Of a DNA stretch of 64,000 nt, positions 7,943-44,005 are shown piece after piece (position 1 is the stretch's first letter; the number at the start of each line of letters is the position of its first letter). The DNA is from Desulfobacterales bacterium (GTDB lineage Bacteria; Desulfobacterota; Desulfobacteria; Desulfobacterales; JAAELO01): the NCBI GenBank assembly GCA_024226555.1, contig JAAELO010000575.1, positions 1 to 64,000 of the forward strand, read 5' to 3'. The position numbers and the translations under genes are program-made. The notes beneath the pieces are model-generated. The model was given only the letters and a program-made list of their open reading frames with translations, had not been told where the DNA came from and ran no database searches.

Positions 7943-8191
7943 TTGCCGATTTTTGAGTTTAAATGCAGTAAGTGCGAAGAGTTCTTTGAAGTTCTTGTAA
8001 TGGGTAAAAAAGAAGAGGAAGATGATACTATAAAGTGTCCTAAATGTGATTGCACCGAATTTGAAAGGGTTCTAAGCTCAACAAGCCATAAAATCGCAAA
8101 TGGAACAGGACCTGGGTCAGGTGGAGCGAATGTTCAAAAAAGAGAATGTTCTGCGGGGTCATGTAGTACTTATACAATTCCGGGTAAATAG
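7943..8191 (+). CDS. FmdB-family zinc-ribbon protein
   Basis: Small 82-residue protein starting MPIFEFKCSKC. Two CxxC pairs (C8/C11 and C32/C35) form the zinc ribbon of the FmdB/CxxC_CxxC_SSSS family, followed by a flexible Gly/Ser-rich tail ending in CSAGSCSTYTIPGK. FmdB was named as a putative regulator of formamidase and amidase genes, but most members have no assigned function. The start is TTG, supported by AAGGAG eight bases upstream and by the family's conserved MPxYEF N-terminus. Monocistronic. Confidence 0.8.
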   Translation: MPIFEFKCSKCEEFFEVLVMGKKEEEDDTIKCPKCDCTEFERVLSSTSHKIANGTGPGSGGANVQKRECSAGSCSTYTIPGK

Positions 8192-8358
8192 GTTCCCTTT
8201 ATTTTTAGCATTACATAAAGTCCTGAAAAAGATGATAAAATCATCAGATTTAACAGGATCTTTCTTCAAATTTAATTTGAAAGAACGTGGAGAAAAATAA
8301 GCTATATTTTTTAATTAAATGCAATCGCAACAATCATTTTTTTTGTTTTAGAGACACA

Positions 8359-8381
8359 TAAAAATCGAAGATTTTTATTTT
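8359..8381 (+). terminator. Intrinsic terminator-like hairpin
   Basis: TAAAAATC-GAA-GATTTTTA followed by four T. It lies 170 bp after the FmdB-like gene and 67 bp before the metal repressor gene. Confidence 0.5.
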
Positions 8382-8447
8382 AGAATTGCCCGATTGCTTT
8401 TTTACATGTATTATACGGCTTTAATTAAAAAATTCTAAGGAAATGAT

Positions 8448-8885
8448 ATGCCAAAAGTAGAAGAGTTGAGCGCCAGCCTGGAAGATTATCTTGAAGCCAT
8501 TTATCATATTGTTAAAGAAAAACAAGCCTCAAAAGCTAAAGATATTGCTGATAGACTTAAAGTTAATAACTCTTCAGTTACTGGTGCCTTAAGATCTTTA
8601 TCAAAAAAAGGTTATATCAATTACGCCCCTTACGATATTATTACTTTGACATCAAAAGGGAAAAAGAAAGCCTCTGATGTTATAAAAAGACATAATGCTC
8701 TTTTTAATTTTTTCGAAAAGGTTTTGAATATAAAAAGAAAAGAGGCTGAAGAGGTTGCATGTAAAATGGAACACTCCCTTTCAAAAAATATCCTGCAAAA
8801 ATTATTAAAATATACGGAATTTGCTGAAGAAACAAAAATAAATGGACAGACAGTAACTGAAAAGTTCAATGCATTTTGTAAATAA
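8448..8885 (+). CDS. DtxR/MntR-family metal-dependent transcriptional repressor
   Basis: Protein of 145 residues with an N-terminal winged helix (about 8-70; the recognition helix is near VNNSSVTGALRSLSKKGYI) and the dimerisation/metal-binding domain of the DtxR/MntR family (RHNALFNFFEKVL...EAEEVACKMEHSLS). The His, Glu, Cys and Met ligand positions characteristic of the family are visible in EEVACKMEH. It lacks the SH3-like third domain, as MntR does. The last 17 bases overlap the start of the DUF1007 gene. It therefore heads a three-gene operon with a Ni/Co-type transporter, and I infer autoregulated control of metal transport. The metal cannot be decided from sequence. Confidence 0.85.
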   Translation: MPKVEELSASLEDYLEAIYHIVKEKQASKAKDIADRLKVNNSSVTGALRSLSKKGYINYAPYDIITLTSKGKKKASDVIKRHNALFNFFEKVLNIKRKEAEEVACKMEHSLSKNILQKLLKYTEFAEETKINGQTVTEKFNAFCK

Positions 8886-9462
8886 AGCGAAAATATTAAC
8901 TTTTGTTCTTATAATGTTACTTTTTTTGCCATCAATTCTTGTATCACACCCCCATGTGTTTATTTCAAGTAACATAAATGTGGTGTTTGATGCTAACGGC
9001 TTTCAAGGCTTTAAGATCCACTGGAGTTTTGATGACTTTTTCTCATCCATGATAGCAAATGATTATGACCAAAACGGAAATGGAATTTTTGATGAAAAAG
9101 AAGTACAACTGATTCATAAAGGTGCTTTTTCAAACTTGAAAAACTTTAACTATTTTACTACCATAAGAGTAAAAGAAATTCCGTATAAAATTAATGGAAC
9201 AAAGAATTTTAATGCAACTTTAACTAAAGGAAAAATGAGTTACTTTTTTTTCATTCCTGTGAAAGGGAATAATATAAAAGAGATAGTTTTTTCCCAGTAT
9301 GATGCAACCTACTATACAGACATTGCTATCTCTTCAAAAGTAACTAATAAAAGCAGAAAATTTAAAATTGAATCAACACTTTACGAAAACAAGAATAAAA
9401 GTTTTTACAATGGAATGGTTCATCCAAGAGAAATAAAAATTAAGATCAGGCAGAAAAAATAG
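8869..9462 (+). CDS. DUF1007-family secreted protein
   Basis: Protein of 197 residues with a Sec signal peptide (hydrophobic segment about 8-26). The mature protein starts near the DUF1007 hallmark HPHVFI, which has two potential metal-binding histidines. An EF-hand-like loop DQNGNGIFDEKE follows. DUF1007 proteins are typically encoded beside NicO/RcnA-type nickel or cobalt transporters, as here, so a periplasmic metal-handling role is likely but unproven. The start overlaps the repressor gene by 17 bp, indicating translational coupling. The gap to the transporter is 71 bp and holds a small AATGTTT/AAACATT hairpin. Confidence 0.8.
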   Translation: MHFVNKAKILTFVLIMLLFLPSILVSHPHVFISSNINVVFDANGFQGFKIHWSFDDFFSSMIANDYDQNGNGIFDEKEVQLIHKGAFSNLKNFNYFTTIRVKEIPYKINGTKNFNATLTKGKMSYFFFIPVKGNNIKEIVFSQYDATYYTDIAISSKVTNKSRKFKIESTLYENKNKSFYNGMVHPREIKIKIRQKK

Positions 9463-9533
9463 TTGTTAAATCTTTTATTTAATGTTTTCTTTAAACATTA
9501 TTTGGTTTAATTTAAAAATATCAGGACCAGAGG

Positions 9534-10439
9534 ATGATAATAAAAAAAACTGTACTTCTCATTACTTTTTTTGTTCTGTTACTCTCATTCACAAACAGTT
9601 ATGCTGGTAATCCTTTTTTATCAGGATCTTCAGAAAAAAAAAGTGTATCACAGATCCTTCCTCACCCTTTTGTACAACAACTTAAAGACCTTCAACGTGA
9701 TCTTCATCAAACTCTATCTTCAAAAATAAAAGAAGTTAAAGAAACAAACAGCTTATCAGCGATTTTTTCATTGATAATGATAGCTTTTCTATATGGAGTT
9801 ATACATTCAGCAGGGCCCGGCCATAATAAAGCAGTTGTTGCAACATATCTCCTGGCAAGAGGTAGAAAGCTTTCCGAAGGCATATTTGTTGGATCTGTAG
9901 TTGCTTTTTTACACGGAGCTTCTGGTGTTATATCGATTTTAATACTTCACTATGTATTAAGAGTTGCTCTAATAAGCAGCTCAATAGATGACGTATCACG
10001 TATTACACAAATTGTTAGTTTCAGTATTATCATTTTAGTCGGCTTTATCTCGCTTTTGATAAAATTAAATGCTCTGTACAGAAGAACAGGCTCAAAAAGG
10101 ACAACAGATACATATATCAGCAGAAGAGGAGATAACGGGCCTCTTTTTATGGGCCTCATAATGGGCTTAATACCTTGTCCCGGTGTGGTTCTTCTTATGT
10201 TATTCGCTTTATCAATGAATATGATCGGACTTGGCATTTTTCTATCATTTGCTTTAACTATTGGAATGGTTGTAACAATATCCATTATCGGCTTTCTTGT
10301 TTTACTATGTAAAAACTTTCTTTTGGATGCTATCAACTGGGGAAAAAGCCTCACTGAGTTCCTTGAATATATTGTTGAGATCATATCTTCAATACTCATT
10401 ACAATTATTGGTATCCTAATGCTTATAGCTGTTGTCTAA
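9534..10439 (+). CDS. NicO/RcnA-type nickel-cobalt transporter
   Basis: Integral membrane protein of 301 residues with an N-terminal signal or TM segment (5-24) and about six further hydrophobic segments. It carries the family motif HSAGPGHNKAVVATYLLARG (about 90-110), whose two histidines lie in the metal path, and the conserved FLHGASGV element. A second half-repeat around GLIMGLIPCPGVVLLMLFAL is also typical. Family members export or import Ni2+/Co2+ at the inner membrane. Direction is undetermined here, though repressor plus DUF1007 plus NicO is a recurrent module. The ATG has AGGA at -8. The radical SAM gene starts 9 bp later and may be cotranscribed. Confidence 0.85.
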   Translation: MIIKKTVLLITFFVLLLSFTNSYAGNPFLSGSSEKKSVSQILPHPFVQQLKDLQRDLHQTLSSKIKEVKETNSLSAIFSLIMIAFLYGVIHSAGPGHNKAVVATYLLARGRKLSEGIFVGSVVAFLHGASGVISILILHYVLRVALISSSIDDVSRITQIVSFSIIILVGFISLLIKLNALYRRTGSKRTTDTYISRRGDNGPLFMGLIMGLIPCPGVVLLMLFALSMNMIGLGIFLSFALTIGMVVTISIIGFLVLLCKNFLLDAINWGKSLTEFLEYIVEIISSILITIIGILMLIAVV

Positions 10440-35332: not shown

Positions 35333-36685
35333 ATGACAAAGAAAAACAGTAAATCAGATACAAACGAAATTATTCTGGAAAGTATTAGTGATGGTGTTTT
35401 TACAGTTGACCATAACTGGCATATAATGACTTTTAACAAATCTGCTGAAGAGATCACCGGAATTTCAAGGAAAGATGCGATCGGAAGACATTGCTGGGAA
35501 GTTTTCAGATCAAACATGTGTGAAGGGGATTGTGCTTTAAAAAGGACAATGTCCGAGGGAAAACCCTTTGTCAGCACATCTACGTATATTATTAGCAGCG
35601 ATAAAAAAAAAATTCCAATCACAGCATCCACATCTCTTTTAAAAGGAGAAGATGGAAAAGTCTTAGGTGGAGTTGAGATTTTCAGGGACCACAGTGTTGT
35701 TGAGGAACTTCGAAAAGAGTTAAATTCCCGCTATGAGTTTTCAGATATGGTTAGCCAGAATAAAGAGATGTTGGGTATTTTCAAAACCCTCCCTCAAATT
35801 GCTCAAAGTGACAGTATGATCATGATTGAAGGTGAGACCGGCACAGGAAAGGAGCTGCTTGCAAGGGCAATACATAATAATAGTAACAGGAAAAATGAAA
35901 AATTTATTGCAGTTAATTGTGGAGCCCTGCCTGATACCCTTCTTGAATCAGAGCTTTTTGGTTATAAAAAAGGAGCTTTTACAAATGCAAATAAAGACAA
36001 ACCAGGTATGTTTGAACTTGCAGATGGTGGAACCATTTTCCTTGATGAAATAGGTGATACAAGCCCGGCTTTTCAGGTTCGCATGTTAAGGGTTTTACAG
36101 GAAAGTGAGTTCATACCGCTTGGCGGGATTGAAACCCAATCTATGAATGTAAGAGTTATAACCGCAACAAACAAAAACTTAAGAGATGAGGTTGAACAAG
36201 GCAATTTCAGACAGGACCTTTTCTACAGAATAAATGTATATGGTATAAAAATGCCAAAACTAAAAGATCGTATGGAGGATGTGCCCCTCCTGGTTGATAG
36301 ATTTATAAAAAAGCTCAATACGATTAAAGGAAAATCAATTTCCGGTATTCACAGTAGTGCCATGGAAAGACTCCTTTCCCATAATTACCCTGGAAATATC
36401 AGAGAGCTTGAAAATATTATTGAACATGCATTTGTGCTTTGTGATGAAAGCACAATTTGCGAAAATCACCTGCCTGTTCACTTAAAGAAATATGTTGCCA
36501 CAGATGGAAAGTCCTTAACAGATGCTGTCAAAGTAACTGAAATTATGAAAATAAGACAAACTCTTGAAGAGAATGGATATAACAGAAGTGTTACAGCTAA
36601 TAAGCTTGGTATGCACAAAAGTACACTCTTTAGAAAAATTAAAAGATATGGAATTTCACTTCCTGATGGTAGAAGTAAAAATTAA
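35333..36685 (+). CDS. PAS-domain sigma-54-dependent transcriptional activator
   Basis: Protein of 450 residues. The PAS domain (about 8-125) carries three cysteines (C54, C63, C67: HCWEVFRSNMCEGDCALK) of a kind seen in activators from sulfate reducers, possibly a redox or metal site. The AAA+ domain (about 138-375) has Walker A GETGTGKE (167-174), Walker B GTIFLDEIGD (about 233-242) and the sigma-54 contact loop as GAFTNA (214-219) instead of GAFTGA. A Fis-type helix-turn-helix closes the protein (RSVTANKLGMHKSTLFRKIKRYGI). There is no receiver, so control is by ligand or redox. By analogy with the Desulfovibrio orp locus it is the likely activator of the -24/-12 promoter at 39877. Confidence 0.88.
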   Translation: MTKKNSKSDTNEIILESISDGVFTVDHNWHIMTFNKSAEEITGISRKDAIGRHCWEVFRSNMCEGDCALKRTMSEGKPFVSTSTYIISSDKKKIPITASTSLLKGEDGKVLGGVEIFRDHSVVEELRKELNSRYEFSDMVSQNKEMLGIFKTLPQIAQSDSMIMIEGETGTGKELLARAIHNNSNRKNEKFIAVNCGALPDTLLESELFGYKKGAFTNANKDKPGMFELADGGTIFLDEIGDTSPAFQVRMLRVLQESEFIPLGGIETQSMNVRVITATNKNLRDEVEQGNFRQDLFYRINVYGIKMPKLKDRMEDVPLLVDRFIKKLNTIKGKSISGIHSSAMERLLSHNYPGNIRELENIIEHAFVLCDESTICENHLPVHLKKYVATDGKSLTDAVKVTEIMKIRQTLEENGYNRSVTANKLGMHKSTLFRKIKRYGISLPDGRSKN

Positions 36686-36770: not shown

Positions 36771-37133
36771 TTATGCCTTTTCTTGAATTTTTTCATCTAT
36801 TAGTTTTTTGAGTGATTTTGCAATTTTAGTTCTCTTTTTTTCAGACTTTAGGTGACCGGGAAGTCTTTCGTACCATCTCTGAACTTCCCAACGATCTGCC
36901 GATCCAATGTCAATCCTTGTACTAAGATGAATTTTCTTTGAGAAGTAATCCAAGCATTCTCTGGCTTGTTCCAAATCCATAAAAGTAAATGTAAAGTTGC
37001 ATTCTTCAACAAAGTAAACCCAAGCTTCACGTAGATTATCTCTGGTAAATTCTAAAAGTCCAATATGCCGGAATGAATCCATTTTGTCCTGATGTTTTAA
37101 AGGATCAAATCTTTCCTTCCAAACTTTTCCCAT
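36771..37133 (-). CDS. Conserved hypothetical protein, 120 aa
   Basis: Soluble, Lys/Glu-rich 120-residue protein starting MGKVWKERFDPLKHQDKMDSF. The middle has an aromatic-rich block (WVYFVEECNFTFTFMDLEQARECLDYFSKKIH), then WEVQRWYERLPGHLKSEKKR and a basic helical tail. No signal peptide, TM segment or catalytic motif is visible. A perfect AAGGAG five bases before the ATG supports it as a real gene. I do not recognise the family. Confidence 0.65.
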   Translation of the reverse strand: MGKVWKERFDPLKHQDKMDSFRHIGLLEFTRDNLREAWVYFVEECNFTFTFMDLEQARECLDYFSKKIHLSTRIDIGSADRWEVQRWYERLPGHLKSEKKRTKIAKSLKKLIDEKIQEKA

Positions 37134-38987: not shown

Positions 38988-39659
38988 TTAATAACTTTTC
39001 TTAATAATAAATTTCACGGTCTCTTTCAAAGTATACCTTTCTGTTTTTTCAGTGTCTTCAATTTCATACTGTTTCTCTTTAATGAGAATATCACTTACTC
39101 CATCACCATTAAGGTCTTTATATATAACATCAGACTTCATGTGGTAACTTCCGCTTCCCATATAATCACTTTCTAAAATCTGCCTGCTGAAAACATTACT
39201 AAGTCTGTTTCCTTTGAGATGGTATACATTGAGGTACTCTTCAGCATTTCCTCTCTGGGCAAAGGAATATAAAGCAACGATGTTTGCAGTGTTTCCAACA
39301 GTTATTACCCTTTGAATTTTCTGGTTGGGAGCTCTGAATTTCAACAAATAGGCTCCATTTTTTAAAATTAAAAGGCCTCCATAATTATAGTGATCCATCT
39401 GTGTTGCAACACTTGGATTATTAATTTCGTTCCAGGAATAAACAGTATAATTTTCACCTGATAGTTCAAATTTTTTCTCAGATTTTGCAGAAAGAAACCA
39501 TCCATCTTTCATTGTTCCCTCTTTTTTTTCAAATGAGGGATAAACATGGTTTGCAATTAAAAGGCTTTTTGCATCTGATGTGTGGATAGCAAACTCTTCA
39601 GCGTATACAGTAGACATAATAATGCTTAAAAAGATCAGAATGAGGGGAGCGGATTTCAT
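38988..39659 (-). CDS. Secreted hypothetical protein, 223 aa
   Basis: Protein with a Sec signal peptide (about 1-20, cleavage near VYAEE). The mature part is rich in beta-strand-forming residues, and the C-terminal half contains DVIYKDLNGDGVSDILI, an FG-GAP/VCBS-like Ca-binding loop. The ATG is preceded by GGAGG. It is divergent from the orp-like cluster. I do not recognise the family; an extracellular or periplasmic beta-structured protein is the most that can be said. Confidence 0.6.
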   Translation of the reverse strand: MKSAPLILIFLSIIMSTVYAEEFAIHTSDAKSLLIANHVYPSFEKKEGTMKDGWFLSAKSEKKFELSGENYTVYSWNEINNPSVATQMDHYNYGGLLILKNGAYLLKFRAPNQKIQRVITVGNTANIVALYSFAQRGNAEEYLNVYHLKGNRLSNVFSRQILESDYMGSGSYHMKSDVIYKDLNGDGVSDILIKEKQYEIEDTEKTERYTLKETVKFIIKKSY

Positions 39660-39763: not shown

Positions 39764-39811
39764 GACGCATTTGTGCGACGTTTCTTTTTTGCATCGAAGC
39801 ATATGTGCGAC
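39764..39811. promoter_or_regulatory. Tandem upstream activator sites of the orp-like cluster
   Basis: Two direct copies of GMMGCATWTGTGCGAC: GACGCATTTGTGCGAC (39764-39779) and GAAGCATATGTGCGAC (39796-39811). They start 32 bp apart, three helical turns, and each contains an imperfect GCAY-ATGTGC dyad. They sit about 66-113 bp upstream of the -24/-12 element. Confidence 0.7.
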
Positions 39812-39876
39812 TTTGATTGAAATCATACCACCCAATAAGAACTGTACATTCTGCTACTTACACAGTTTCTGCATAA

Positions 39877-39892
39877 TGGCACTCCAATTGCA
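39877..39892 (+). promoter_or_regulatory. Consensus sigma-54 (-24/-12) promoter
   Basis: TGGCAC-N5-TTGCA, an exact match to the sigma-54 consensus, 27 bp before the first ATG of the cluster. The predicted transcription start lies within about 15 bp of the ATG's GGAGAG ribosome binding site. Confidence 0.88.
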
Positions 39893-39918
39893 AATCATAA
39901 AATGAAAGGAGAGTTTTT

Positions 39919-40293
39919 ATGGTGACAGCCATCACAATCTGGGGTGACAGAATATCACCTGTTTTTGATTCAGCAAGTGCAATCCTGATTGTTGAAATTA
40001 TTGAAAACAGAATTGTTAATAGATCAACAGAAATGTTTTCACCTGGATTCCTTAACGTTCTTACAAAAAGATTAAATGAACTAAATGTTTCAACTATTAT
40101 ATGTGGTGCTATTTCAGAAGCACCAGCACATACGATTGAGAATAAAGGGTTTCATCTAATACCTTTTATAACTGGTTCTGTTACGGAAGTATTACTTAAT
40201 TATGAAAAAGGAGAATCAATTACACCAAAGTTTCTGATGCCCGGTTGCAAATGCCAAAAAAGAAAAAGAGGCAGATGTTGTAAAAACCGATAA
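39919..40293 (+). CDS. NifX/orange-protein-fold protein, cysteine-rich tail
   Basis: Protein of 124 residues of the dinitrogenase Fe-Mo cofactor-binding (NifX/NifB C-terminal/MTH1175) fold: AITIWGDRISPVFDSASAILIVEI, STIICGAISEAP and a later FITGSVTEVL. The C-terminus is a basic Cys cluster (MPGCKCQKRKRGRCCKNR) that could bind a metal or nucleic acid. First gene of a tightly packed operon behind a sigma-54 promoter. SD AAAGGAG at 39903-39909. Desulfovibrio orp loci encode comparable proteins; the specific role is unknown. Confidence 0.8.
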   Translation: MVTAITIWGDRISPVFDSASAILIVEIIENRIVNRSTEMFSPGFLNVLTKRLNELNVSTIICGAISEAPAHTIENKGFHLIPFITGSVTEVLLNYEKGESITPKFLMPGCKCQKRKRGRCCKNR

Positions 40294-40305
40294 AAGGAGG
40301 AATTT

Positions 40306-40491
40306 ATGCAGGGTTTTCGATTAAAGCAGAATAGAAAAAACAAAAATCTAAGGTTTAAAAACAGAAGAAACAGATTTTCACAGCAATTAAGATGCAGAGG
40401 TAATGACAATCAACCAAAGGGAGACCTTTTAAACTCAAAGTTTGAAAGGTTTGAGAATTCCGAACAGAAAAATGAGGATGAGGACGAGTAA
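40306..40491 (+). CDS. Small basic protein in the orp-like operon, 61 aa
   Basis: A 61-residue protein with an Arg/Lys/Asn-rich first half (QGFRLKQNRKNKNLRFKNRR) and an acidic C-terminal tail. AAAGGAGG five bases before the ATG and packing between neighbours (12 bp upstream, 0 bp to the next start) argue that it is translated. Small Arg-rich proteins of the DUF5320 kind often accompany NifX-fold genes, and this may be a relative, but similarity is too weak to name it. Confidence 0.6.
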   Translation: MQGFRLKQNRKNKNLRFKNRRNRFSQQLRCRGNDNQPKGDLLNSKFERFENSEQKNEDEDE

Positions 40492-40878
40492 ATGGCACTT
40501 ACTTTGATAGTAGGAAGTAATAAAAATTTTGATACTCTTTCAGGGTCTTTAAAGAGATGTTTTGAAGTTATTACAGTCTCCTCATATGGAGTTGCAATGA
40601 ATATAGCTTCAGAACTTGCGATTGATCTTCTGGTTGTTGATGAAAACCTTTCTGGAATAGATGGGCTTAAAATAATAAAAGAAGTAACTAACATAAATCC
40701 TTTTATAAACACAGCGCTGGTTAGTTCACTTTCTCCTGAAGAGTTCCATGATGTGAGTGAGGGCCTGGGTATTATTATGCAACTGTCAACCTCACCCACC
40801 TTGGAAGAAGCAAATATTCTTGTAGAAAAATTTAATGAGATCTTAACTCTTACCGCAACTAACGGAAGTCATATATGA
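40492..40878 (+). CDS. Degenerate stand-alone receiver-like protein
   Basis: Protein of 128 residues with the alternating strand/helix pattern of a response-regulator receiver. A possible phospho-acceptor Asp50 lies in DLLVVDENLSGIDGLKI, and Ser78/Ser79 occupy the switch position. The acidic pair after strand 1 is replaced by GSNKN and the invariant Lys after strand 5 by Ser/Thr (QLSTSP), so phosphorylation is doubtful. More likely a protein-interaction module within the orp-like complex. It starts directly after the preceding stop, and its last 4 bp overlap the next gene (ATGA). Confidence 0.7.
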   Translation: MALTLIVGSNKNFDTLSGSLKRCFEVITVSSYGVAMNIASELAIDLLVVDENLSGIDGLKIIKEVTNINPFINTALVSSLSPEEFHDVSEGLGIIMQLSTSPTLEEANILVEKFNEILTLTATNGSHI

Positions 40879-41717
40879 TTATTAGTGTAGCCAGTGGAAA
40901 AGGTGGAACAGGAAAAACGACGGTTTCAACGAATCTAGCATATTCTGTTCAGGATGCAACTATCCTTGATTGTGATGTGGAAGCACCCAATGCTCATCTT
41001 TTTCTCAAACCTGTAATAAAAGATGTTGTTAAAGCACATGTAACCATTCCAAAAGTCGATGAAAAGATATGTAACCTGTGTAAAAAATGCATGGATATAT
41101 GCCAGTTCAGTGCAATCGCTGTGATCGGAAAATCGTTATTAGTGTTCCCTGAACTTTGTCATAGTTGCATGGGCTGTTTTGAGGTGTGCCCTGAAGATGC
41201 ATTAATCAAAGATAAAAGATTGATTGGATCAGTTGAGAGTGGCAAAAGTGAAGATCTTAACTTTATAAAAGGTATCCTCAAAACAGGGGAATCTATGTCT
41301 CCACCCCTTATAAAAAGAGTTAGGGAGCATCAAAGAAAAAAAGTAAACATTATAGATGCACCTCCCGGGACATCCTGTCCTGTTATCGCTTCGATGACCG
41401 GAGCCGATTTTGTTCTTATGGTCACCGAACCAACCCCATTTGGAATGCATGATCTGAAACTTGCAGTAGAAGCTGTCAAACTCCTCAATATTCCCTACGG
41501 TATAGTCATAAACAGGTCGGGCAAGGGAGATAATGAGGTCAATAAATATGCTGAAAAGGAAAATATTCCGGTTTTAATGGAAATTCCTTTTGATAGAAAA
41601 ATAGCTGAACTCTATTCAAATGGAGAAATTCTGGCAAAAGAACCAGTTTGGAAAAGAAAATTTAAAGATCTTTTTAATAAAATTAGTAAATTAGCAGAGA
41701 AAGAGGCCGCCATATGA
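40875..41717 (+). CDS. MinD/Mrp-family ATPase with inserted 2[4Fe-4S] ferredoxin domain (first)
   Basis: Protein of 280 residues. A deviant Walker A KGGTGKTT (10-17) begins a MinD/Mrp-type P-loop fold. Two CxxCxxCxxxC clusters are inserted at C66/C69/C72/C76 and C95/C98/C101/C105. The ATPase core resumes with IIDAPPGTSCPVIASMTGADFVLMVTEPTPFGMHDL. Such Fe-S ATPases occur in pairs in Desulfovibrio orp loci. Relatives of the Mrp/NBP35 group assemble or transfer Fe-S or mixed-metal clusters, so a role in building the Mo/Cu-type cluster of an orange protein is a reasonable inference. Overlaps both neighbours by 4 bp. Confidence 0.88.
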   Translation: MIISVASGKGGTGKTTVSTNLAYSVQDATILDCDVEAPNAHLFLKPVIKDVVKAHVTIPKVDEKICNLCKKCMDICQFSAIAVIGKSLLVFPELCHSCMGCFEVCPEDALIKDKRLIGSVESGKSEDLNFIKGILKTGESMSPPLIKRVREHQRKKVNIIDAPPGTSCPVIASMTGADFVLMVTEPTPFGMHDLKLAVEAVKLLNIPYGIVINRSGKGDNEVNKYAEKENIPVLMEIPFDRKIAELYSNGEILAKEPVWKRKFKDLFNKISKLAEKEAAI

Positions 41718-42619
41718 AAGAATTAGTTGTTTTAAGTGGTAAAGGCGGCACTGGAAAAACGAGTATTACCGCATCCCTTTCATATTTTGCAGAAGACAAA
41801 GTTCTTTGTGATGCTGATGTGGATGCATCAAACCTTCATCTGCTTCTTAATCCGGATATTATTGAAAGATATGAATTTGAGGGTGGTAAAGAAGCATCAA
41901 TTTTAGAAGAGGATTGCACAAGGTGTGGAATTTGTATTGATCTTTGTAAATTTGGAGCCATCAAAGACTTCAGAATCGACCCTATCCTTTGTGAAGGATG
42001 TTCTGTTTGTTTTAATTTCTGTCCTGATGATGCGATTGATTTTGAAACAAAGGTCTGTGGGGAATGGTTTATGTCAAATACCCGCTTTGGTCGATTAGTA
42101 CATGCAAGACTTGGAATAGCAGAGGAAAACTCTGGTAAATTAGTAACAAAAGTAAGATCTGCAGCCAGAGAGTACGCAAAAAATAACAATATTGAACTTA
42201 TTATTACCGATGGTCCTCCAGGTACAGGATGCCCTGTTATAGCCTCCATGAGCAATGCCTCACTAATCTTGCTTGTAACAGAGCCAACTGTATCTGGACA
42301 CCACGATTTTTTAAGAATTGCAGACCTTGCAGAGCATTTTAAAATTCCACACCTGCTCTGTGTTAATAAATTTGATCTCAATATTGATAAAACACTTGAG
42401 ATCGAGAATGAAGCAAAGAAACGGGGAATACCCGTTTTAAACAGAATTCCTTTTGATCCGATCTTCACAGATGCCATGGTAGAGCAGAAAACAGTTGTGG
42501 AATTTGCACCAAATTCTTCAATTTTAGAGGAGTTAAAAAGGCTTTATGATGAAATTTTTTCATCAGTTAACGAAATAAAAAATAAAAAAATAGAACTTAT
42601 AAAATTAGAGGAGAAGTAG
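41714..42619 (+). CDS. MinD/Mrp-family ATPase with inserted 2[4Fe-4S] ferredoxin domain (second)
   Basis: Protein of 301 residues, paralogous to the preceding one. Deviant Walker A SGKGGTGKTS (8-17); ferredoxin cysteines C68/C71/C74/C78 and C93/C96/C99/C103; then IITDGPPGTGCPVIASMSNASLILLVTEPTVSGHHDFLRI. The two proteins probably form a heterodimer, as proposed for orp ATPases. It starts by ATGA overlap with the first, and the next gene begins immediately after its stop, so expression is tightly coupled. Confidence 0.88.
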   Translation: MKELVVLSGKGGTGKTSITASLSYFAEDKVLCDADVDASNLHLLLNPDIIERYEFEGGKEASILEEDCTRCGICIDLCKFGAIKDFRIDPILCEGCSVCFNFCPDDAIDFETKVCGEWFMSNTRFGRLVHARLGIAEENSGKLVTKVRSAAREYAKNNNIELIITDGPPGTGCPVIASMSNASLILLVTEPTVSGHHDFLRIADLAEHFKIPHLLCVNKFDLNIDKTLEIENEAKKRGIPVLNRIPFDPIFTDAMVEQKTVVEFAPNSSILEELKRLYDEIFSSVNEIKNKKIELIKLEEK

Positions 42620-43000
42620 ATGAAAGATGGAAGAATAGCAATCCCTTCCAATGGTGAAGGTGGCCTTGAGGGAACAAGATCCGGACATTTTGGACATTGT
42701 GATGTTTTTACTTTTGTAGATGTTAAAGATGGTGAAATTATAAATACTGAAGTTTTAAAAAATGAAGGTCATGTACAGGGTGGATGCATGGTTCCCGTTA
42801 ATCTTCTTTCAAGCCATAATGTAAAAGCCCTTATTGTTGGTGGAATTGGCATGAGGCCTCTCATGGGTTTTAAACAGGTCGGAATCGACGTTTACCACGA
42901 TGGTGAAAGAATGGATATAAAACCTGTTGTTGAAGATTTAATTAATGGAACACTGGCAGCAATTAAAGATGATCAGGTATGTGGTGGCGGCCAACATTGA
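42620..43000 (+). CDS. NifX-fold protein with Gly/Cys/His tail
   Basis: Protein of 126 residues: RIAIPSNGEGGLEGTRSGHFGHCDVFTFVDV is the N-terminus of the NifX/NifB-C-terminal fold, with HFGHC as the potential metal ligands, followed by GGCMVPVNLL and GGIGMRPLMGFKQVGIDVY. The C-terminus VCGGGQH supplies further possible ligands. It begins directly at the preceding stop. Likely cluster or cofactor carrier in the same complex. Confidence 0.82.
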   Translation: MKDGRIAIPSNGEGGLEGTRSGHFGHCDVFTFVDVKDGEIINTEVLKNEGHVQGGCMVPVNLLSSHNVKALIVGGIGMRPLMGFKQVGIDVYHDGERMDIKPVVEDLINGTLAAIKDDQVCGGGQH

Positions 43001-43060
43001 TAACGACTTGATTTTGATTAATACAAAATAAAGAGTAAGCTTTGAACTCTTTTTAATAAA

Positions 43061-43268
43061 GGAAACCCTCTAAGAAATAAAAACACGACAACAATGAAAA
43101 GCAAACATAATTTTGCCGTTTTTGTTTTTATATTATTTCGTCCGAGGTTATCATAACTAATTAGGATTTTGAGATGAAATACAAGGCATAAAAGAGTGAA
43201 GACGTATGTCTTTTTATACTTCGAACTCTTTTTAACACAGTATTTCGCCCAAAAGACAATTATTAAAG
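43061..43268. repeat. Palindromic interspersed element, variant copy
   Basis: Left end GGAAACCCTCTAAGAAATAA, right end CAATTATTAAAGG. Inside, ATACAAGGCATAAAAGAGTG and ACTTCGAACTC pair imperfectly. It sits inside the orp-like cluster, between the fifth ORF-dense block and the final gene, and its right end abuts that gene's ribosome binding site. Confidence 0.55.
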
Positions 43269-43276
43269 GAGTGAAC

Positions 43277-43636
43277 ATGAAAATTGCTGTTACCTCTCAA
43301 GGTGCTACCCTTGAATCCAAAATGGACCCAAGGTTTGGAAGAGCAGCTTACATAATGATCGTTGATAGTGAAACAATGGCTTTTGAAGTATTTGATAATA
43401 GTGAAAATGCAAATGCTCTGAAAGGTGCAGGTATTAAGACTTCAGTTCTGATATCTGAAAATGGTGCAAAAGTCCTTCTTACAGGCTATTGTGGCCCTAA
43501 TGCTTTTAAAACTCTTCATACCGGAGGTTTAAAAGTAGTAAATGATGTAAATGGTTCTGTCAAGGAAGCTGTTTTGGCTTTTAATGATGGAATTTTTACC
43601 TATTCAGAGGGCCCAAACAAAGACGGACATTGGTAA
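43277..43636 (+). CDS. Orange-protein-like (MTH1175/NifX fold) protein
   Basis: Protein of 119 residues beginning MKIAVTSQGATLESKMDPRFGRAAYIMIVD, which is the typical N-terminus of the orange-protein/MTH1175 group; SENGAKVLLTGYCGPNAFKTL follows. In Desulfovibrio this protein binds a S-Mo-Cu cluster and is the core of the Orp complex. The frame is open upstream to 43196, but the ATG at 43277 with AAAGGAGTG gives the family start. Separated from the preceding gene by 276 bp of repeat and ended by a strong terminator. Confidence 0.82.
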   Translation: MKIAVTSQGATLESKMDPRFGRAAYIMIVDSETMAFEVFDNSENANALKGAGIKTSVLISENGAKVLLTGYCGPNAFKTLHTGGLKVVNDVNGSVKEAVLAFNDGIFTYSEGPNKDGHW

Positions 43637-43644
43637 AACTCCCT

Positions 43645-43681
43645 AAAAAACCTCTGGTGAATTTATTCACCGGGGGTTTTT
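43645..43681 (+). terminator. Terminator of the orp-like cluster
   Basis: AAAACCTCTGGTGAA / TTCACCGGGGGTTTT stem with a short TTA loop and T run, 11 bp after the last stop. Confidence 0.85.
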
Positions 43682-44005
43682 GCAAATCATTTCAAAAAAA
43701 TCGTGTTTTTTGGTCTTGCCCCATCTAAATTTTTAGTTTTTGTAAAAAACCCTGAATATTTTTCACAAAGCCAGCGCTATTTTAAGCATATATTCTACTC
43801 TGAAAAACAGAGGTCTTTGAAATAAATTGGTTCTAACAAAACATGACCTTAATATAACCAGGCCAACCTTTATATTGGAATAGGACTATCCAGATTTTTT
43901 ATTGATCATTTCCAGTATTTGTAGTTAAATATAAATGATTCTTAAAAATATTCAATACAACCTTAGACAATAAAAAAGTATTTTTATTAAAAATAGTGGG
44001 TCTAC
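43682..44005. other. Intergenic region, no gene seen
   Basis: 324 bp of A+T-rich sequence between the orp-like terminator and a binding-protein gene. No promoter consensus, hairpin of note or ribosome-binding-site-supported frame was found. Confidence 0.5.

Follow-up and report, generated by a model that had tools for sequence, protein, structure and literature searches.

An orp-type operon in a Desulfobacterales bacterium behind a sigma-54 promoter with paired upstream palindromes that recur at homologous loci

Introduction

Orange-protein (ORP) complexes occur widely among anaerobes; in the literature covered, Desulfovibrio vulgaris provides the only control system described. In that organism the orp complex is controlled by sigma-54, IHF and the enhancer-binding protein (EBP) DVU2106 (PMC3897727), and palindromic sites belong to the arrangement (PMC3897727, PMC6345978). 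These papers bear out what a preliminary description of the present DNA had stated, that the D. vulgaris orp genes are sigma-54 controlled with a cognate activator. The Fe-S proteins of the D. vulgaris complex receive their clusters from MrpORP (PMC6345978).

Sigma-54 control of orp clusters is already known. To judge from the open literature searched, what is new is the upstream site described below and its reach, the P1 protein family with its MPGC motif and cationic tail, and a pseudo-receiver as a regular member of these clusters. The locus lies in the window (the whole 64-kb stretch of DNA analysed). It is probably an orp operon under one-component sigma-54 control whose products would handle a metal-sulfide cluster.

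Genes of the operon

The seven-gene operon and its immediate surroundings contain the following features.

39919-40293, plus strand: P1, NifX-fold protein (PF02579) with CGA and MPGC motifs and a cationic Cys-rich tail; fold from AlphaFold2 (AF2)/Foldseek
40306-40491, plus strand: P2, 61-aa basic orphan; in relatives the slot often holds DUF5320
40492-40878, plus strand: P3, pseudo-receiver with an invariant FHExxEGLG core (H86, E90, G91, G93) and receiver matches in the PDB
40875-41717, plus strand: M1, MinD-type ATPase with two [4Fe-4S] ferredoxin motifs (Orp3/4-like)
41714-42619, plus strand: M2, second MinD-type ATPase with two [4Fe-4S] motifs; adjoins M1 in nearly all loci
42620-43000, plus strand: N6, NifX-fold protein (PF02579) that matches the MrpORP C-terminal domain
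43158-43265, no strand assigned: interspersed repeat between N6 and O7, probably an insertion and outside the mechanism
43277-43636, plus strand: O7, PF02579 protein, orange-protein (ORP) homologue, start ATG at 43277
43647-43682, plus strand: probable intrinsic terminator after O7, from sequence inspection; its hairpin core was found on the minus strand

The gene list first drawn up from the sequence agrees with Pfam, which gives three PF02579 proteins, two MinD-type ATPases with a ferredoxin insert, a sub-threshold receiver and a 61-aa basic protein without a family. The receiver and NifX folds are backed by AF2/Foldseek. In a 20-sequence alignment of the P1 family, C62-G-A and M107-P-G-C110 are invariant, and the relatives of P1 carry after MPGC a basic tail that is predicted to be disordered.

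P3 has a CheY-like fold (AF2 pLDDT 89; Foldseek matches to HupR, CheY and NtrX) and lacks the receiver signature. Across its family the phospho-Asp position is Asp in 28 of 45 proteins, and the acidic pair and the Lys are not conserved; because these residues are not conserved the protein is called a pseudo-receiver. It is conserved in at least 45 proteins. For P2, no family match was obtained in Pfam and no relative by tblastn in the loci. Its assignment to DUF5320 or another known family was rejected for lack of a match, and it does look lineage-specific. The preliminary description had singled out a small basic protein and a receiver as parts of this operon. Both are present, but only the basic protein appears peculiar to the lineage; the receiver is no local oddity, since many orp clusters carry a conserved pseudo-receiver.

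The repeat at 43158-43265 has imperfect 22-bp inverted arms, and about 40 other partial matches to it are spread through the genome. The gap between N6 and O7 is usually much shorter in relatives with the same gene order.

The promoter and the paired upstream elements

Three elements precede P1.

39764-39779, plus strand: putative upstream activator element 1, GACGCATTTGTGCGAC; pair conserved in relatives
39796-39811, plus strand: putative upstream activator element 2, GAAGCATATGTGCGAC, 32 bp from element 1; pair conserved in relatives
39877-39892, plus strand: sigma-54 promoter, TGGCAC-N5-TTGCA (TGGCACTCCAATTGCA), with 0 mismatches to the consensus

The promoter had been described as an exact sigma-54 consensus, and it proves to be unique as well, the sole match in the window with fewer than two mismatches. 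From the end of the -12 element to the ATG of P1 (39919) the distance is 26 bp. RpoN is encoded in the same genome. A small hairpin followed by a T-run, possibly a chance occurrence, lies at 39942-39960, just within the P1 gene. An RNA element in the region was ruled out, Rfam having given no match.

The two upstream copies and their 32-bp spacing, measured start to start, are as initially reported. Their inverted-repeat nature had been missed: both are near-palindromic inverted repeats of GTCGCA-N4-TGCGAC, the window copies reading GaCGCA-N4-TGCGAC and GaaGCA-N4-TGCGAC. The sequence GNNGCANNNNTGCGAC occurs exactly 3 times in the 7.69-Mb genome, 2 of them at this promoter. With one mismatch allowed, the excess is modest (69 genome matches versus 52 for a reversed-pattern control). 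The proximal element is 73 bp from the -24 element, which fits the helical phase seen in relatives. Judged from these spacings, the elements are three helical turns apart and at a helically phased distance upstream of the promoter.

Conservation at homologous loci

A motif search at homologous loci, which the preliminary description had proposed as a check, was carried out on the 320 bp upstream of P1 genes (64 regions, with 1621 control windows). The motif is present, not absent: 38 of the 64 regions and 1 of the 1621 control windows have the palindrome pair at 32/33 bp, by a score shaped on about 16 loci that had already been viewed and are not independent. A sigma-54-like site was found in 54 of the 64 regions and in 3% of the control windows. 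Both occur in the right order, with the sigma-54 site downstream of the pair, in 37 of 64. A dinucleotide-shuffle test gave p<=0.01 in 30 of 39 regions, and the mean pair score over 39 regions peaks at spacings of 32 and 33 bp. Measured from the proximal site to the -24 element, the distances fall into groups near 73, 84, 94 and 104 bp (Rayleigh p ~1e-6 at 10.5 bp); groups of this kind are read as sites on one helix face.

These counts bear on whether the promoter and repeats are simply chance matches. Sigma-54 consensus matches with two mismatches are indeed common in the window (17 versus 13 expected). The match here, however, is exact, the repeats are near-unique, and both are conserved at homologous loci when set against the 1621 control windows. 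On these grounds a chance origin was rejected, and we regard it as very improbable.

The pair was seen again directly 3' of the activator gene in separately fetched, activator-centred loci (e.g., L185, L189, L203 and L211), a set that was collected after the score had been designed and that has some genomes in common with the first. It is missing at P1 in some loci that have both P1 and the activator, such as L053, L110, L115 and L172. Among the loci are some from metagenome-assembled genomes (MAGs) that carry the labels Hydrogenedentes, Methylomirabilota, Holophagales and Kazan, taxon labels being taken as given. To judge by sequence features, related bacteria share this switch, as do assemblies placed in several other phyla, and it lies there beside genes of a family of small proteins that resemble metal proteins.

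Relatives of M1 are found in 50 of 58 same-order genomes. A common gene order in many loci is activator, P1, (DUF5320 etc.), P3, M1, M2, N6 and O7. No activator is encoded locally at the orp operons of Desulfobacula, Desulfospira and Desulfotignum, most of which keep a single palindrome and a sigma-54 site. In all 8 genomes tested from these genera an activator 60-65% identical is encoded elsewhere, adjoining a P1 gene. With the activator distant beside P1 and the palindromes kept at activator-less orp operons, it is therefore the sites that would define the regulon, and activator plus P1 that would form its recurrent core.

The activator

One candidate regulator is encoded upstream in the window.

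35333-36685, plus strand: sigma-54 activator (EBP); Pfam gives PAS (Cys54/63/67), AAA+ (GAFTNA) and Fis-type HTH (HKSTLFRK) domains

An AAA+ domain with a GAFTGA-type loop (here GAFTNA) and a Fis-type HTH place this protein among the sigma-54 enhancer-binding proteins; the variable position of the loop is D, G or N in most activator relatives. Across the phylum, 111 of 297 genomes have relatives at E<=1e-135. The PAS residues Cys54, Cys63 and Cys67 are invariant in 67 of 67 aligned relatives. They could form a metal or redox site.

Orthologues of the 35333 activator lie directly upstream of P1 in most relatives. In the window the activator gene is 3.2 kb from the operon. The earlier account placed hisD in between, which is correct but incomplete, as the 3-kb segment contains hisD together with two further minus-strand ORFs (36771-37133 and 38988-39659). 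At this locus (L182) there is no palindrome pair directly 3' of the 35333 activator gene. The tandem elements are nonetheless supported as probable sites of the 35333 activator because of their fixed 32/33-bp spacing, their helical phasing to the sigma-54 site and their usual position just 3' of a 35333 orthologue.

The recognition helix gives a further indication. GTCGCA-type sites (C at the third base in 2 or more of the 4 half-sites) accompany an HKSTLF helix in 17 of 21 cases, an HKTTLF helix in 0 of 9 and a TLWRK helix in 0 of 6; the window combines HKSTLF with GTCGCA-type sites. Correction for relatedness leaves 4 independent pairs when only supported branches are counted; 3 are concordant and 0 contrary, and the association is not significant. 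That the Ser/Thr residue of the helix goes with the third half-site base is suggestive only, because just four independent tree comparisons are available.

The same genome has a second PAS-activator with a divergent NifX-fold gene at L259 (G000:C336), 8032-9959. This paralogue is 51% identical to the 35333 protein and has the helix HTSTLWRK. Between it and the divergent NifX-fold gene is a tandem ATTGCA-N4-TGCAAT pair, 34 bp apart, and the three together are likely a parallel mini-regulon. The tandem sites of the orp operon might instead be read by such a regulator, given that a close paralogue exists beside a NifX-fold gene and that the 35333 gene no longer adjoins the sites. Against the C336 protein, its own tandem pair is of a different type and spacing and its helix is different, and the tree puts the 35333 protein nearest to activators that stand beside GTCGCA-type sites. 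Recognition by another regulator is accordingly quite improbable, and the 35333 protein is retained as the candidate activator.

Proposed mechanism and function

Under one-component control, dimers of the activator would occupy both palindromes, and the three-cysteine PAS domain would register a redox or metal-sulfide signal, upon which the AAA+ domains would form a hexamer. Through looping, the hexamer would reach RNA polymerase-sigma54 and bring about promoter opening. The biochemical role that we infer for the products is to assemble a metal-sulfide cluster (Mo-Cu-S or Fe-S) or to hold one. The Fe-S ATPases M1 and M2 would be the ATP-driven part, the clusters would be carried by ORP and the NifX-fold proteins, and the pseudo-receiver P3 may act as a phosphorylation-independent adaptor.

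A different role for the complex, doubtful but with observations on its side, would be septum or pole positioning in the manner of MinD/ParA, with the metal clusters only structural or regulatory. Inactivation of DVU2106 reportedly altered cell morphology in D. vulgaris, in work by Fievet from 2011. MrpORP is also polar in the cell (PMC6345978). However, the division role of the D. vulgaris complex is itself called a hypothesis to be confirmed in PMC4672049, and the three NifX-fold proteins, the two 2x[4Fe-4S] ATPases and the DUF5320 proteins of relatives point to metal-sulfide handling.

Within the metal-sulfide reading, P1 and the activator may constitute a regulatory pair. A cluster-carrying P1 would inform the Cys-PAS activator of metal-sulfide status, giving the whole orp regulon feedback; the pair would be a conserved core across assemblies assigned to several phyla, retained at loci whose other orp genes are elsewhere, with one helix residue (Ser/Thr) going with one site base. 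This proposal is speculative, and as a whole we think it rather unlikely to hold.

A defined conserved site makes the regulon readable from sequence in many uncultured anaerobes. P1, the pseudo-receiver and the Cys-PAS activator are named partners for probing the function of the Mo-Cu orange protein.

Comparison with known systems

The cluster has the orange-protein homologue (O7), two neighbouring MinD ATPases (M1 and M2) with two [4Fe-4S] motifs apiece and, judged by sequence comparison, a sigma-54 promoter with a putative cognate activator. Of MrpORP (Orp9) only the C-terminal domain type (N6) is present in the cluster, and the organism's own genome gave no NF041136 match to a full MrpORP at E<=1e-120. 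Because the cluster lacks MrpORP and the genome gave no match at that threshold, the locus is assigned, from its gene content, to the orp kind as a variant rather than a D. vulgaris-type member, MrpORP in the cluster being a D. vulgaris-type feature that is not universal among the relatives examined.

Compared with orp1/orp2 and DVU2106 of D. vulgaris Hildenborough, the two ferredoxin-MinD ATPases, the orange protein and sigma-54 promoters are alike (PMC3897727; PMC4641369; PMC6345978), as are the palindromic sites upstream and the activator, a single-component protein whose loop is of the GAFT[DN]A type. The window has one operon where D. vulgaris has two divergent ones, and its activator gene stands 3.2 kb away. 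It is without MrpORP and adds P1 with the cationic tail, the pseudo-receiver and the orphan basic protein. A divergent D. vulgaris-like orp locus (L250, 8974-9019) has tandem GACGAA-N3-TTCGTC sites 31 bp apart; the architecture is alike and the letters differ, a motif difference that rests on that single locus.

The locus could be merely a rearranged version of the D. vulgaris orp system that offers no novelty, considering that it shares the core proteins, sigma-54, a PAS-type activator and palindromic sites (PMC3897727). The lack of MrpORP in the operon and, at E<=1e-120, in the genome, the additional P1 and pseudo-receiver, and a site sequence unlike that of the one locus L250 argue against this, and simple rearrangement is unlikely. 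The cluster is better described as the orp variant set out above.

Single proteins also have described counterparts. N6 matches the C-terminal Di-Nase domain of MrpORP/Orp9 (NF041136, positions 266-365, E=3.7e-14; PMC6345978) and stands alone, with no fused Mrp ATPase half. The best solved relative of O7 is the D. gigas ORP (2wfb; phmmer E=1.3e-26), to which it aligns over nearly its whole length, cluster binding by O7 being putative. P1 can be compared with IssA, the thioferrate storage protein of Pyrococcus furiosus (PMC5524996): both have a PF02579/IPR003731-type domain of NifX-type fold followed by a cationic C-terminal tail, predicted to be disordered in P1, a likeness of layout. The tail of P1 is about 15 residues long, follows MPGC and is Cys-rich in the window, whereas that of IssA has 70 residues and is Gly/aromatic-rich.
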